From contig NZ_JACVQC010000001.1 of assembly GCF_018881505.1 (NCBI RefSeq), forward strand, positions 310,001-374,000: a DNA stretch of 64,000 nt, read 5' to 3'. A program made the position numbers and the translations under genes. The notes beneath the pieces are model-generated. The model was not told the origin of the DNA. It made no database searches and saw nothing but the letters and a program-made list of their open reading frames with translations. Shown in pieces: positions 5,660 through 11,189 of the stretch. The DNA comes from Polynucleobacter sp. UK-Mo-2m-Kol15 (lineage in GTDB: Bacteria; Pseudomonadota; Gammaproteobacteria; Burkholderiales; Burkholderiaceae). Position 1 is the first letter of the stretch; the number at the start of each line of letters is the position of its first letter.

Positions 5660-6184
5660 TTATGCGGAGAGTTCGAGTTGCATGATGAGAGTGTTGACCA
5701 GTTGATTAACACTAGGTTTGCCAGTCTCAATGACATAGTCAGCGATTTCGCGATACAGGGGGTCACGAATAGCATAGAGGTTTTCTAAAATCTTTTTTGC
5801 ATCACCATTCTTAAGAAGTGGCCTACCTTCGCCGCCTTTGGTGCGATGCCACAGTTCTATGGGATTAGCATGGAGATAAATTACTGTGCCTCTTTTACTA
5901 AGAAATTGACGATTTTCGGGAAGGAGAACAGCCCCGCCCCCGGTAGCCAAAATGAGCTCATGTTCAGCTGTAATATCTTTTATGGCCTGAGCCTCGCGTT
6001 TGCGAAAGCCATCCTCGCCTTCCATTTCAAAAATGACGGGAATCTTGACGCCACAACGCTCTTCAATCACATGGTCGGCATCTAAAAAACGACGACCTAA
6101 TTTCTTGGCCAGCAATTTCCCGACCGTCGACTTTCCGGCGCCCATGAGGCCAATAAGAAAGATATTGTTGGATGAAGTGTTCAC
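5660..6184 (-). CDS. aroK: Shikimate kinase
   Basis: Phosphorylates shikimate with ATP. P-loop GLMGAGKST, shikimate-binding DADHVIE and the ATGGGAVL motif are present; 174 residues. The start is GTG at 6184 and no ATG fits the N-terminus. There is no useful ribosome-binding site: instead TAAAAT (6191-6196, minus strand) ends exactly 6 bases before the GTG, a possible leaderless promoter. It lies 12 bases behind the secretin gene. Confidence 0.96.
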
Positions 6185-6196: not shown

Positions 6197-7318
6197 TTAG
6201 TGTTTGTCCAGGATGGTGGGGGTTAAGAAGACTAATAATTCAGTTTTATCTGCCAATTTGGATTTATGGCGAAATAAATGCCCAATCAAAGGAATGTCAC
6301 CCAGTAAAGGTACTTTGATCTCGTCATCGCGTTCGGTGGTTTGAAAAATCCCGCCTATGATCGCTGTACCCCCATTTTCAACTGTGACTTCGGAGCTGAG
6401 ATTTTTGGTATCAATCGCATAACCCTGCTCAGTTTTCATGCCAATGGTGTCTTTATTAATACCCACCAACATAGAAATTTTCCCATCCGGATGAATCTTA
6501 GGCAGGACTTCTAGCCGTAAATTAGCTTTGCGAAACTGTAATTTACTCCCGCTTTGAGAGCTCACTTGGTAGGGCAACTCAGTTCCTTGTTCAATCGTTG
6601 CTTTCACCTGATCGCCTGTCATGATGCGGGGGTTGGAGAGAATCTTACCTTGGCCATCGGATTCGAGGGCTGAGAGCTCAATTTGTAATTGACGGGCCGC
6701 ATTTTTAGAAACTAAAGTTGCAGCTAATGTAGCTGGATTGAATCCAGCCAAGCCAGTTCCGGCGAGATCAAGGTTAGCGCTTGCATTTTGGTTTGGGTGG
6801 TTGCCAATTGCATTAGCTTGAAATCCCAACTTCATACCTAGCTCACGGGCAAAGCGCTGATCGGCTTCAACGATACGAGCCTCTATGAGTATCTGGCGAG
6901 GGCTATTGATGTGGTCTCCCCCAAAAGGCAGTGCAGCATCCTCCCGTCGAAATTTTTGAAAAGTTTGAATTTCTGCATGAGGACCAATCCAGTAAATATC
7001 GCCATTTCGGACCAGCCGTAATCCTCGGCTAGCTAAGATCGAATGGAGGGCGGTTTGCCAAGGAGTATTTTTGAGATCAACTGAAATCTTGCCCTCAATC
7101 GATTCGCTGAGGAGAAAGTTGGTATCTCCCATTTTGGCTAAAACTTGCAAAAGCTCAGTCAATTCAATTTGGCTAAATTGCAGGCTAATTTGACTTTCTT
7201 CAGGCTTGCTTGATGAGCTCATTTCAGCGTGATTTCCCAGCGCTGGCTTGAGTAATAAAGCCAGGATTATGAGCGGCATACTGGCAGAGAGTTTTGGAAA
7301 GATTTTCAATAAAGTCAC
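6197..7318 (-). CDS. pilQ: Short PilQ/HofQ-type secretin
   Basis: Outer-membrane secretin of the type IV pilus or DNA-uptake family. After an N-terminal signal-like segment comes an STN-type domain (about residues 45-115, LQFSQIELTELLQVLAKMGDTN region), a secretin short domain (ILIEARIVEADQRFARELG) and the secretin core ending in the family signature VPLLGDIPLIGHLFR. At 373 residues it is about half the length of usual betaproteobacterial PilQ and lacks the AMIN domains; size and layout resemble HofQ. Its start overlaps the stop of the upstream membrane protein by 4 bases. Normally pilMNOP precede pilQ at this spot. Confidence 0.85.
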   Translation of the reverse strand: MTLLKIFPKLSASMPLIILALLLKPALGNHAEMSSSSKPEESQISLQFSQIELTELLQVLAKMGDTNFLLSESIEGKISVDLKNTPWQTALHSILASRGLRLVRNGDIYWIGPHAEIQTFQKFRREDAALPFGGDHINSPRQILIEARIVEADQRFARELGMKLGFQANAIGNHPNQNASANLDLAGTGLAGFNPATLAATLVSKNAARQLQIELSALESDGQGKILSNPRIMTGDQVKATIEQGTELPYQVSSQSGSKLQFRKANLRLEVLPKIHPDGKISMLVGINKDTIGMKTEQGYAIDTKNLSSEVTVENGGTAIIGGIFQTTERDDEIKVPLLGDIPLIGHLFRHKSKLADKTELLVFLTPTILDKH

Positions 7319-7995
7319 TCCGATCGGGTGGATTTAAAGGTGATAGATTTGCCTTTGGGGTGGGTCAAGACGGCCAGCTCTTTTGACAATTGAGTCAGTC
7401 GCCATTCCCCTAAAGCTATTGCCTCCTTGAGCACCATGGTGGTGGATTTGCCGGTATGGAAAAAAGCTTGCTCCGTCATGCCAATTCGGGCGATACCTAA
7501 GTATCTCCAGCGACGAAGGTCTGCTTCCTCAGGAATAACCATGGGCTTGTTTTGGGGCGCCTGAATTGGTGGTTTTATCTCTAATAAGTGAATACTTACT
7601 TCTATTTCATCAATTGCTTCGTATAGATCTTCTTGCTCAGAATGCCATTTGCTTTGAGAGTATTCAAATTCCTCTTTGAGTGTTAAATGCTGATTCTGTA
7701 AGGTGCTAATTTCTATCTCAGCCCCAGATTGTTTTGTTTCAAAATAAAAAAAGAGGCTGCCTCCAAAGAGTATTAAGCTTCCACCAAAGACCCAAAGTGG
7801 GCTGCAAGTAAGGCTGTTGAGTTCAAACCAGTTAGTAGAAAAAAAGGGCTTTGGAGGCTTACTTTGGGGCCCCATATCCACCCCTCTAGGAGATGATGTT
7901 TTGCGAATTCCGTGGGGATCTGGAATGGCGGGGTCATCACCCAGCTCGCTCAAAATATCATCAAATGTTTGGGGGGAGATATGGCGTGCAGGCAT
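7315..7995 (-). CDS. Composite inner-membrane protein, probably replacing PilN/O/P
   Basis: 226 residues, no family recognised with certainty. Residues 1-60 are polar and proline-rich. One membrane segment covers about 67-85 (LWVFGGSLILFGGSLFFYF). A likely coiled coil follows (about 92-140, rich in E, Q, L), then a proline-rich linker and a C-terminal beta-type domain (about 155-226, with RWRYLGIARIG, QAFFHTGKS and LGEWRLTQLS). That order of cytosolic tail, membrane helix, coiled coil and small beta domain looks like PilN/PilO plus a PilP-type domain in one chain. It overlaps the secretin gene by 4 bases, so the two are surely linked. Function is inferred from layout and position. Confidence 0.7.
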   Translation of the reverse strand: MPARHISPQTFDDILSELGDDPAIPDPHGIRKTSSPRGVDMGPQSKPPKPFFSTNWFELNSLTCSPLWVFGGSLILFGGSLFFYFETKQSGAEIEISTLQNQHLTLKEEFEYSQSKWHSEQEDLYEAIDEIEVSIHLLEIKPPIQAPQNKPMVIPEEADLRRWRYLGIARIGMTEQAFFHTGKSTTMVLKEAIALGEWRLTQLSKELAVLTHPKGKSITFKSTRSE

Positions 7996-8135: not shown

Positions 8136-10472
8136 ATGGCTCTACCTCCAAAAGACAGGCCGCCCTTAAATCGGCGGTTTAACCGACAGCCTGATAAACG
8201 TCCCAGTCAGCAAAGAGGGGAAAATTTCTCGTCTGCTAAGTCAGGAGGCAACCCCCTCATTAAGGCGCTGCTCATTATCAGCGTGGTCTTTGCTGTAGTG
8301 ATTACGCTATTGCTGGGGTACGCCTTTTTAATAGCAAAGCCGAATTTGCCCAAGATCTCGGCATTGGTTGATTACAACCCGAAAACACCATTACGGATTT
8401 ATACGGCTGACAAAGTGCTTATTGGTGAGTTTGGAGAGGAGCGCCGTAAGGTGATCCCTTTGAATGAGATACCAATGAGTATGCGCAATGCAGTTTTAGC
8501 CATTGAGGATGATCGCTTTTACTCACATGGTGGAGTGGATTACATAGGCATCCTCAGGGCTGCGTTAACTAATTTGCGCGGTAACCTCTCCCAAGGTGCA
8601 TCAACCATCACCATGCAGGTGGCACGAAACTTTTTTCTTAGTAACGAGAAGACTTTCAGTCGCAAGATTTATGAGGTGCTTCTGTCTTGGGAAATCGAGT
8701 CTCAATTAAGTAAAGACAAGATTCTTGAGATTTATATGAATCAGATCTTTTTGGGTCAGAGAGCTTATGGATTTTCTAGTGCGGCTCAAATCTATTTTGG
8801 TAAAGAATTAAAGGACATTACCATTGCGGAGGCCGCCATGTTGGCAGGATTGCCTAAAGCACCCTCGGCTTATAACCCCGTCAGCAATTTCCGCCGCGCC
8901 AAGATTCGTCAGGAATATATTTTGCAGCGTATGCGTGATTTGTCCTACATCACGCCTGAGCAATATCAAATCGCCATGGCTGAAGAGTTAAAAATTCGAG
9001 GCTTGGGAAATGAATTTAGTACCCGCGCCGATTTTGCTGCGGAGATGGTACGTCAATTGTTGTTTACCCAATATGGCGAAGCAATTTATTCTCAGGGAAT
9101 AGACGTTTACACCACGATCTTGAAGGCAGATCAGGAAGCAGCCTATAGAGCAGTGCGTCGCGGTATTTTTGAATATGATTTACGGCACGCATATCGTGGA
9201 CCAGAGGGATTTATTGATTTGCCACAGGATACTGTGAAGCGTCAACGGGCAATTGATGAGGCCTTGTTAGCTTACCCGCAGTTAGATGATTTACAGTCCG
9301 GCGTAGTGCTTGATATCAAACCAAAAGAAATGCAAGTGATGATTTCAACTGGAGATATGATCACACTCAAAGGCGAGGGCTTGAAGCTTGCGGCCGCCTC
9401 CTTGACTGACAGTACGCAACCCAAAAAACGTTTACGCCCTGGTGCGATTGTGAGGTTGCTTTCCGATGGTGGCATTTGGAAGTTAGCGCAGTTACCACAA
9501 GTTGAAGCAGCCTTTGTTTCTATGAATGCCGAGACGGGTGCGATTCTCTCCTTGGTGGGCGGCTTCGATTTTCGCCGCAATCAATTTAATCACGTGACTC
9601 AGGCACAACGTCAGCCGGGCTCTTCATTTAAACCCTTTATTTATGCCGCTGGAATTGAAAAAGGATTCTCTCCAAGCACGATGGCCAATGATGCGCCGCT
9701 ATCCATTGGCAGCATGGAGACTGGTAGTAAAGCTTGGGAGCCTAAGAACTACGATGGTAAATATGAGGGCATGATGCGCTTACGTACAGCTTTGGCTAAA
9801 TCGAAAAACTTAGTTTCGGTGCGCCTTATTCGCGCCATCGGCCCCTCTTATGCGCAGGAATATATTCAGCGCTTTGGTTTTGAGTCAGAAAAGCACCCGC
9901 CTTATTTAACAATGGCTTTAGGTGCTGGCTCTGTAACGCCTCTGCAAATGGCATCGGCTTATAGTGTGTTCGCTAATGGTGGCTATCGCGTAGATCCATT
10001 CTTGATTAATAAGATGACGGATTCAAAAGGAGTGGTCTTATTTGAGGCCAAACCAACACATGCAGGCGAAGATGCGACTCGTGTTCTAGACGCTCGTACA
10101 GCCTTCGTAATGGACAGCATGTTGCAAGAGGTTACAAAAACTGGGACTGCGGGAAGTGCAAGAGCGAAATTAGGTCGTAGTGATATCGCAGGTAAAACAG
10201 GCACAACCAATGACTCACACGATGCTTGGTTTGCAGGGTACAGTCCAAAGGTAGTGGCCATTGCATGGATTGGTTTTGATAAGCCTGTAAGTTTGGGTGA
10301 TCGTGAAACCGGTGGTGGCCTTGCCTTACCAATGTGGATCTCTTACATGAGTACGGCCTTAAAAGATCATCCCCAACAAGGTCGTGAAGTTCCTGCGGGT
10401 GTAACCCAAGTTGATGGTGATTGGTTTATTCCCGAGTTTTCTAATAGTGGCGGTGCGCGCGAACTGCAATAG
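8136..10472 (+). CDS. mrcA: Bifunctional penicillin-binding protein 1A
   Basis: Class A PBP that polymerises glycan strands and cross-links peptides. A basic cytosolic tail (1-40) and one membrane helix (about 41-67) are followed by the glycosyltransferase 51 domain with catalytic EDDRFYSHGGVD and QGASTITMQVARN, an OB-like insert, and the transpeptidase domain with S496-x-x-K (GSSFKPF), the SKN triad and KTGTTN (K near 687). Length 778 is typical. The ATG is the only start that precedes the membrane segment. It is divergent from the secretin cluster, as usual for ponA next to pil genes. The stop codon lies inside a short hairpin (10460-10476). Confidence 0.96.
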   Translation: MALPPKDRPPLNRRFNRQPDKRPSQQRGENFSSAKSGGNPLIKALLIISVVFAVVITLLLGYAFLIAKPNLPKISALVDYNPKTPLRIYTADKVLIGEFGEERRKVIPLNEIPMSMRNAVLAIEDDRFYSHGGVDYIGILRAALTNLRGNLSQGASTITMQVARNFFLSNEKTFSRKIYEVLLSWEIESQLSKDKILEIYMNQIFLGQRAYGFSSAAQIYFGKELKDITIAEAAMLAGLPKAPSAYNPVSNFRRAKIRQEYILQRMRDLSYITPEQYQIAMAEELKIRGLGNEFSTRADFAAEMVRQLLFTQYGEAIYSQGIDVYTTILKADQEAAYRAVRRGIFEYDLRHAYRGPEGFIDLPQDTVKRQRAIDEALLAYPQLDDLQSGVVLDIKPKEMQVMISTGDMITLKGEGLKLAAASLTDSTQPKKRLRPGAIVRLLSDGGIWKLAQLPQVEAAFVSMNAETGAILSLVGGFDFRRNQFNHVTQAQRQPGSSFKPFIYAAGIEKGFSPSTMANDAPLSIGSMETGSKAWEPKNYDGKYEGMMRLRTALAKSKNLVSVRLIRAIGPSYAQEYIQRFGFESEKHPPYLTMALGAGSVTPLQMASAYSVFANGGYRVDPFLINKMTDSKGVVLFEAKPTHAGEDATRVLDARTAFVMDSMLQEVTKTGTAGSARAKLGRSDIAGKTGTTNDSHDAWFAGYSPKVVAIAWIGFDKPVSLGDRETGGGLALPMWISYMSTALKDHPQQGREVPAGVTQVDGDWFIPEFSNSGGARELQ

Positions 10473-10484: not shown

Positions 10485-11189
10485 ATGGCAAGGCAAGCAC
10501 GCACCATTATTCCTGGCCAAGCAATGCATGTCATGGTTCGCGGCAATAATCGGGAAATACTTTTTTTTAATGAGACTGATCGACGCAGATATTTGGATTG
10601 GCTGCGAGAAGCTGCAAAGCAATTTGGTAGTTCGGTCCATGCATTTGCTTTGATGCCTAATCATGTACATCTCCTGATGACTCCCCAAAATACGGATTCT
10701 CTGGCAAAGACGATGCAATCTTTAGGTAGGCGTTATGCCCAGTATTTCAATCAACAGCACAACCGCTCGGGAACTATTTGGGAGGGACGCTATCGCTCTT
10801 CGCTGATAGACCCTGATTATTTTTTACGTTGTCAACGCTATATTGAGCTTAATCCTGTGAGGGCTGGTTTTGAAGCTAGCCCCCAAGGTTCCACTTGGAC
10901 CAGTTTTGCTTCCCACATCGGTGGAAATGCAGAGCCATGGTTAGTGGATCACCAACATTTTTGGAAGTTAGGTAATACTCCTTTTGAGCGACAAATGACT
11001 TGGGCGGCATTTGTGAAGGAGGGCGCGCCCCATTGGGAAGACCGCCAAATTACCGATGCATTGCTAAGATCTAAGCCCTGGGTAGGCGATATCTATGCAA
11101 AAAATGTATTTAAAGAGAATCCTGAGCAGGCATTAATCCGCCAGCGTGGTCGCCCAAAGAAATTAATCCCTATCAATTCAGTAAGTTAG
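10485..11189 (+). CDS. Y1 (IS200-like) transposase of the REP-associated RAYT type
   Basis: HUH-type single-strand transposase domain. The N-terminal HVMVRGNNREILFF, the HUH pair in MPNHVHLLM (about residues 64-72) and the downstream helix with tyrosine in CQRYIELNPVRAGF match the Y1 family; RAYT proteins share the long C-terminal extension seen here (residues about 140-234). Length 234. It stands alone, 12 bases after the PBP1A gene, without IS ends in the classic sense but with stem-loops downstream. RAYT genes are usually single-copy and vertically kept, so it may be domesticated rather than a fresh insertion. Confidence 0.85.
   Translation: MARQARTIIPGQAMHVMVRGNNREILFFNETDRRRYLDWLREAAKQFGSSVHAFALMPNHVHLLMTPQNTDSLAKTMQSLGRRYAQYFNQQHNRSGTIWEGRYRSSLIDPDYFLRCQRYIELNPVRAGFEASPQGSTWTSFASHIGGNAEPWLVDHQHFWKLGNTPFERQMTWAAFVKEGAPHWEDRQITDALLRSKPWVGDIYAKNVFKENPEQALIRQRGRPKKLIPINSVS

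Follow-up and report, generated by a model that had tools for sequence, protein, structure and literature searches.

Two minus-strand genes sit between the PBP1A gene and aroKB in the window, the stretch of 64,000 nucleotides analysed here, which belongs to a Polynucleobacter genome of 2.18 Mb that is 99.98% complete. The first gene of the pair encodes a protein of 226 residues, hereafter the composite, which was delineated from its ORF, an alignment and a predicted model (7315-7995, minus strand, ATG start). The second encodes a PilQ-type secretin of 373 residues, recognised by Pfam, NCBIfam and PDB alignments (6197-7318, minus strand, GTG start). According to the ORF coordinates, the stop of the composite and the GTG start of the secretin overlap by 4 bases (7315-7318, minus strand), an arrangement suggestive of translational coupling. 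A two-gene locus of this kind had been described in the earlier note, and both reading frames were recovered with the lengths and overlap given there.

Site of the pair and domain make-up of the secretin

As indicated by locus comparison, the genes flanking the pair, aroK (5660-6184, minus strand) and the divergent PBP1A gene (8136-10472, plus strand), mark the pilMNOPQ site of other genera. The presence of this cluster at the same place in other bacteria, stated in the earlier note, was found in two other genera (G268 and G264), where PBP1A, pilM, pilN, pilO, pilP, pilQ, aroK and aroB follow each other in that order. The same PBP1A and aroK flanks occur in G127, G213, G188 and G149, as in the window, with only the composite and the short secretin inside; for G127 and G188, the composite was taken as the ORF in that place, a BLAST search with the window protein reaching neither. 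The order PBP1A, composite, secretin, aroK and aroB recurs in 67 of the 73 loci compared; in the remaining six, PBP1A and the composite alone are seen. These comparisons support the conclusion that the pair occupies the pilMNOPQ place of the two other genera.

The window secretin matched the Pfam families STN (N0) and Secretin over their cut-offs, and no Pfam match was obtained with AMIN or Secretin_N (N1). Since AMIN, STN, Secretin_N and Secretin were all matched in control PilQs of 691 and 705 amino acids from the same locus in two other genera, N1 is missing from the window secretin as well as AMIN. The lack of AMIN domains had been proposed in the earlier note and is borne out by Pfam; the loss of N1 had not been remarked. 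The N0/STN domain (residues 44-113; 6980-7189, minus strand; Pfam and PDB alignments) is the putative docking site of the HR domain carried by the composite (see below). It is directly followed, via a short linker and with N1 absent, by the pore-forming part (residues 140-370; 6209-6901, minus strand). Consistently, the secretin family profile aligned with Neisseria PilQ over N0 (profile positions 26-115) and resumed at position 134, with 87 residues separating the two aligned stretches in the Neisseria chain (418 to 506). The absence of N1 is based on Pfam, with the two control PilQs, and on PDB alignments, the structure prediction of the secretin (mean pLDDT 34 with 11 similar sequences) being no basis for modelling the N0-HR contact. 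Among NCBIfam models, the cut-off of PilQ was passed (TIGR02515, 306.7 bits, cut-off 284.35), the score with HofQ remained below the cut-off of that model (203 bits), and the cut-off of the GspD model was missed (174.9 bits, cut-off 351.35). Only one secretin match was found in the source genome. The secretin of G127, a very divergent member of the genus, has the same domain make-up, although its STN score (23.7 bits) falls short of the cut-off (28.4 bits).

The composite and its C-terminal domain

The composite reaches no Pfam cut-off and matches no NCBIfam model; among the Pfam families searched were PF04351 (PilP), likewise unmatched elsewhere in the genome, and those of PilN and PilO. Twelve relatives share 36-47% identity with the composite, and the first 32 residues are almost invariant in all of them. 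This N-terminal motif (residues 1-32; 7900-7995, minus strand), which probably lies on the cytoplasmic side, accounts for 24 of the 45 columns that are invariant in the 13-row alignment, and its residues 8-18 form a helix of modest confidence in the AlphaFold model (block pLDDT 65-70). In this model, computed with 37 sequences, one continuous helix follows (residues 66-140; 7576-7800, minus strand), comprising a membrane span (residues ~67-85) and then a coiled coil, with seven strands located between residues 164 and 222. The pTM is only 0.41, because the parts are flexibly linked. The membrane helix, the coiled coil and the small beta domain that had been read from the sequence are thus all seen in the predicted model, and the resulting topology, a single membrane span and then an HR domain, is that of GspC. 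One membrane span was found in all 37 family members, none of which shows a lipobox pattern in its first 40 residues. The C-terminal domain measures 58-75 amino acids in 36 of the 37, the one exception (L143) reflecting an earlier motif picked up by the domain-length count. When two separately aligned groups of 11 and 26 composites were compared with hhalign, they matched each other with a probability of 99 (E 3e-18), and reversed halves gave 0.7 and 4.6. The N-terminal starts of the L163 and L164 composites are uncertain, and the composite pick of L162 (G094) was left out.

The seven-stranded beta domain (residues 156-226; 7318-7530, minus strand) was assigned to the PilP/GspC HR type from the predicted model, VIA, Foldseek and profile comparisons. 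Its residues 161-220 reach a block pLDDT of 97-98. The first eight VIA rows are all PilP or HR domains of GspC/PulC, with Z scores of 9.5 (3jc8_Pa, counted as PilP from its chain name), 9.4 (2y4y), 9.0 (2lc4), 8.8 (2y4x), 8.6 (3oss), 8.1 (2ivw), 7.5 (4av2) and 6.9 (6hcg); the best row outside the HR and secretion families is beta-lactoglobulin (5.9). The first four Foldseek matches belong to the PilP and GspC HR families with a probability of 1.00, the best being 3oss_C (GspC HR), and none reaches E 0.001. A profile of 11 divergent composites, searched against 177,635 PDB sequences, ranked two PilP chains first (E 0.031 and 0.048), and whole-length hhalign comparisons of the composite with PilP gave probabilities of 34 and 15. 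Over the whole length, PilO and PilN score as high as PilP, which makes this comparison uninformative, and the composite profile was split into N- and C-halves, with reversed sequences as controls. The C-half matched PilP with a probability of 74 with all 37 members, 32 with the 11 divergent ones and 8.5 with the other 26, which include the window protein; PilO, PilN and the reversed controls gave 0.1-0.5. These data support the prediction of a PilP-type (HR) domain, the sequence match being weak. In reported experiments, PilP binds N0 of PilQ and not N1 (PMC3441751), and the HR domain of GspC binds N0 of GspD in type II secretion (PMC3169554). The HR match extends to residue 226, the last of the composite, with no PDZ or coiled-coil domain after it.

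PilN and PilO carry a ferredoxin-like globular periplasmic domain; none is present in the model of the composite, which contains only helices and the HR domain. The N-half matched PilO with probabilities of 47-80 in two of three groupings (reversed PilO, 1-2) and PilN with 53-73 in the same two groupings, and both fell to 8-13 in the most divergent group. The matches span 9-36 columns of membrane span or coil, and because PilN and PilO are matched about equally over such short stretches, the helical half is assignable to neither. The view that PilN/O and PilP functions had merged into one chain therefore stands in part: the comparison with PilN, PilO and PilP returned a PilP-like C-terminal fold, not an unrelated one, and the PilN/PilO share of the claim finds neither a globular domain nor a helix that prefers one of the two.

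Similarity of the N-half to PilO, together with the adjacency of pilO and pilP at this site in other genera and the PilO-PilP fusions known in a few species (PMC3169554), would fit another origin. The composite might derive from a pilO-pilP (or pilN-pilP) fusion from which the PilO globular domain and the PilP lipoprotein leader were deleted, its helix being the PilO or PilN span and coil. However, PilN is matched alike, the columns involved are of a kind that many such helices may match, and both signals drop in the most divergent group, so that we consider this history possible but rather doubtful. It concerns origin and is compatible with the mechanism proposed below for the HR tether.

Remaining pilus genes, distribution and selection

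In the source genome, the PilN, PilO and PilP profiles gave no match at E 0.1, and the two weak matches of the PilM profile are MreB (491 bits) and FtsA (172 bits). The lack of a PilM counterpart, first remarked for the window, thus holds genome-wide, and a full pilMNOPQ cluster sought elsewhere in the genome was not found. As positive controls, three other genera yielded the targets of the PilM and PilO profiles, with E values of 1e-47 or lower, and the PilN profile matches PilN over cut-off in two of these three; among 24 genomes from other genera of the order, 18 contain PilP.

The genome contains one T2SSE ATPase (356 amino acids), which is closest to PilB, both among models (PilB 374.4 bits, GspE models 371 and 354, ComGA 255, PilT 161) and among PDB chains (PilB 275, GspE 264, PilT 104 bits). 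Its alignment begins only at PilB position 173-199, which indicates that it has no N1 domain, and with N1 absent, it falls short, with its 374.4 bits, of the PilB equivalog cut-off of 675.65 bits. Since this PilB-like protein is the sole T2SSE match, PilT was not found in the genome. The ATPase gene lies in a cluster with the order CorC-like, ATPase, PilC (352 amino acids), PilD (166 amino acids), coaE and zapD-like, in which coaE, zapD and CorC were named by eye. PilD usually carries an N-terminal methylase part; here (L050:7593-8093), as in L053 and L055, only the Peptidase_A24 part is present (151-166 amino acids in the three), so pilins may be cleaved and not N-methylated. Similar short forms of the ATPase, PilC and PilD are present in G127 and G012. 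The major pilin is of type IVa (PF00114 Pilin, 60.2 bits, cut-off 22), and four likely minor-pilin genes form a cluster, one being over a curated cut-off (GspH), one having matches below cut-off and two being assigned by place and N-terminus only. ComEC is also present (PF03772, E 1.9e-65), which fits DNA uptake without proving it. The suggestion that the pair might serve DNA uptake rather than fibres is unlikely in its second half: since the genome carries the pilin and minor pilins as well as the ATPase, PilC and PilD just described, a fibre is probably made. The reduction is also larger than the earlier note had it, as the secretin N1, the ATPase N1, the PilD methylase part and PilT are gone too.

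Searches with the window composite matched 14 of the 15 listed genomes of the same genus and none of 135 other genomes of the family (1 of 25 genera), the named relatives being Polynucleobacter species and metagenome bins labelled Burkholderiaceae, Betaproteobacteria or Polynucleobacter. The 13-row composite profile matched 97 of 121 genus genomes. Sixteen of the 24 unmatched genomes were inspected; in 15, a divergent composite immediately precedes the short secretin, and the other, G237 (91% complete, ~160 contigs), gave no secretin match. Together with G127, a gene of like build is thus found directly upstream of the short secretin in 16 loci that the profile does not match. The secretin profile matched 29 of 30 selected genus genomes, four of these in pieces or as a fragment. 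A class-wide search with the composite profile (369 genomes, including the source genome) gave matches at E <= 0.01 in 127 genomes; among the matches listed, none is full-length apart from that of the source genome, nearly all lying in the membrane-span and coiled-coil part and a few in the HR part, and none was read as a relative of the composite.

PilN was matched over cut-off in 5 of 81 genus genomes, and in G149 and G181, the match lies in one frame with PilM, in an additional island separate from the minimal locus. Frames of ~540-580 amino acids bearing PilM or PilM-PilN, which we take to be MSHA/T2SS-like, were observed besides the minimal locus in L041 and L051 (G149), L040 (G181) and L248 (G213), and G149 additionally has extra ATPases. 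ComEC was matched in 12 of 13 genus genomes tested, the G094 copy being a fragment. In G213 (L277), the composite and secretin are open and ComEC was not matched; its pilus may have another use, or ComEC may be missing from the data. We know of no experiment on this reduced pilus system. Among the open-licence papers listed, no title or abstract start reports Polynucleobacter pili, transformation or such a locus, and the genus is not named in the main text of Denise et al. (PMC6668835).

Both genes are under purifying selection in the window lineage. When the window was compared with 18 relatives, the composite gave dN/dS values of 0.11-0.23 and the secretin, in the 16 that allowed a calculation, values of 0.04-0.07, some of these comparisons being near saturation at synonymous sites; over pairs with dS 0.05-1.2, the median is 0.20 for the composite (66 pairs) and 0.05 for the secretin (61 pairs). 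L178 and L181 were left out of the set of 20 loci by a motif filter; the pair is intact in L178, and L181 (P. necessarius PPGSP2) has an in-frame stop in the composite and an open secretin frame. The earlier reading of the overlapping genes as intact, selected and not decaying is thereby confirmed for the window.

Broken copies occur in some relatives, namely G094, G164, G247 (composite broken, secretin open), G249, G228 and P. necessarius PPGSP2. In G094 (1.66 Mb; L278, L054 and L091), the composite, the secretin, the ATPase, PilC and two minor pilins are broken. The best ORF covers less than 0.8 of the gene in 6 of 8 matched pilus genes, against 7 of 28 other genes (Fisher p 0.016), in a comparison that covers three stretches and excludes 10 ORFs without a match (including a V-like minor pilin) and one antisense ORF. 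Broken non-pilus genes include corC and ribBA, whereas aroK, aroB, PBP1A and PilD are intact; with 7 of 28 non-pilus genes broken, G094 decays broadly and not in this pathway alone, and the joint breakage of its pilus genes lends the machine proposed below weak support. The name P. necessarius was proposed for obligate endosymbionts of ciliates (PMC5018217), and it may be that symbionts lose the pair and free-living species retain it.

The proposed reduced type IVa pilus and its alternatives

We propose, with a probability of about 0.7, that a type IVa pilus has been secondarily reduced here and that the pair makes up its envelope-spanning part, a GspC-like tether having taken over from PilMNOP; the pilus probably serves DNA uptake. 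Computed here were the genes present, their position and domains, the HR fold in the predicted model and the purifying selection; we infer the side of the N-terminus, the HR-N0 contact, the docking of the N-terminal peptide, pilus formation, retraction and DNA uptake. The composite would be anchored in the inner membrane by one helix, with its conserved N-terminal peptide in the cytoplasm, touching the ATPase or the platform. The near-invariance of this N-terminus suggests a partner on the cytoplasmic side, for which, PilM being gone, the ATPase and PilC are the candidates. The coiled coil would extend into the periplasm with the HR domain at its tip, where it may bind N0 of the short secretin; the locus has retained exactly HR and N0, a pair known to bind elsewhere, and dropped the rest. 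The composite alone would thus perform the bridging job that is split among PilN, PilO and PilP elsewhere, and PilM, the N1 domain of PilB and the N1 ring of the secretin would be dispensed with. The pilin, the minor pilins, one PilB-type ATPase, PilC and PilD would complete the machine, whose retraction, as no PilT was found, would be passive or driven by the single ATPase. For ComGA, extension and retraction by one ATPase is one of three possibilities discussed (PMC6370729), and by analogy, one ATPase driving both would be the simplest reading here. DNA would most likely be caught and then passed to ComEC.

On a more general level, and at what we regard as even odds, it may be possible to build and retract a diderm type IVa pilus that has a single motor and no PilM, PilN or PilO. 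One bitopic protein with a conserved cytoplasmic peptide and an HR tip would physically couple the ATPase or platform to a secretin made of N0 and pore. A genus-wide lineage would thus have returned nearly to the five-component machine suggested for the superfamily ancestor, with one tether added.

A role of the pilus in attachment, phage reception or twitching instead of DNA uptake would accommodate G213, with its pair and no ComEC match; yet ComEC is matched in nearly all genus genomes tested, even if as a fragment in G094, and the absence of PilT makes twitching less likely, so that such uses seem unlikely, though not negligibly so. A clearly improbable reading is that the genes belong to a type II secretion system in reduced form, with a tether like GspC, a pore like GspD and a pseudopilus that would push proteins out. 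The topology of the composite is that of GspC, its best Foldseek match is a GspC HR domain, and there is no PilT; however, the secretin passes the PilQ and not the GspD cut-off, the major pilin belongs to PF00114, and the pair occupies the pilMNOPQ site. The ATPase scores best with PilB, GspE trailing slightly (374 against 371 and 354 bits; 275 against 264). The PilM and PilN profiles found no counterparts of GspL or GspM in the source genome either. Marginally less credible still is that PilM, PilN and PilO lie elsewhere in the genome and have diverged beyond the reach of the profiles. PilN and PilO, like other small proteins of the periplasm, do diverge fast, but the same profiles, as the controls above illustrate, find PilM, PilO and mostly PilN in other genera, PilP is found in most genomes of other genera, and the locus itself has no room for PilM, PilN and PilO. 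That the pair is a decaying remnant, as the broken copies in six relatives might suggest, is most implausible given the intact genes of the window, their low dN/dS and the order kept in nearly all loci, the others showing PBP1A and the composite only.

The pair is thus real, found across the genus and selected, and probably belongs to a type IVa pilus in which one HR tether stands in place of PilMNOP, with matching losses in the ATPase and secretin; the fibre and its use are predicted. Such a reduced PilMNOP-less pilus is a new form of a known machine, and each of its relatives differs from it in some part. The HofQ competence secretin is likewise a short relative of PilQ; it has N0 and N1, whereas the window secretin has no N1. 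PilP of the type IVa pili of Neisseria and Pseudomonas ends, like the composite, in an HR-type beta domain (Z 7.5-9.5). However, PilP is described as a lipoprotein with an unstructured linker (PMC3441751), whereas the composite has a membrane helix running into a coiled coil and no lipobox, and its C-terminal domain is short by comparison. GspC/PulC shares the short cytoplasmic part, the single membrane span and the HR domain, but its chain is reported to contain a Pro-rich linker, and its HR domain to be followed by a PDZ or coiled-coil domain (PMC3169554); in the composite, the coil precedes HR, which comes last. The PilO-PilP fusion of Pseudomonas putida (PMC3169554) likewise combines an inner-membrane anchor and HR in one chain; going by its description, the composite differs from it in having no PilO globular domain, and PilM and PilN are absent as well.

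Among whole machines, the monoderm Com pilus likewise does without PilMNOP and PilT, and is described with a single ATPase without N1, a platform, pilins and a peptidase (PMC10191384, PMC6370729). It has no secretin, whereas Polynucleobacter keeps an outer membrane secretin and an HR tether, and for the ATPase, platform and secretin found here, the models of PilB, HofC/GspF and PilQ give higher scores than those of ComGA and ComGB. The chlamydial type II system without GspL/GspM (PMC6668835) is likewise a diderm superfamily machine without L/M parts, but by description, it belongs to the type II secretion lineage of an obligate intracellular group, whereas the machine found here is of pilus type. 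A 2023 review, noting that the assembly of Com pili does not involve MNOP, raises the question why the other machines have these extra inner-membrane proteins (PMC10191384), and PilMNOP are regarded by Denise et al. (2019) as later additions that other systems do without (PMC6668835). The systems said there to do without MNOP include Com, type IVb, Tad and archaeal pili, and the chlamydial type II system without GspLM is named as well (PMC10191384, PMC6668835). That MNOP, the ATPase N1 and the secretin N1 are all absent together in a diderm genus suggests that these parts work together. The genus thus offers a natural test of which pilus parts are needed, with one bridging protein and a cut-down pore in place of five genes, and a small N0-HR pair for structure work. 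With sequenced named strains of a genus that is abundant in fresh water (PMC5069759), the minimal needs of an outer-membrane pilus are directly testable.

A Y1_Tnp (IS200-like) gene lies beyond PBP1A (10485-11189, plus strand), between it and a glutamate synthase gene. As similar ORFs occur near the same locus in G149, G213, G188 and G127, this transposase-like gene may have been domesticated; the G094 copy is broken.
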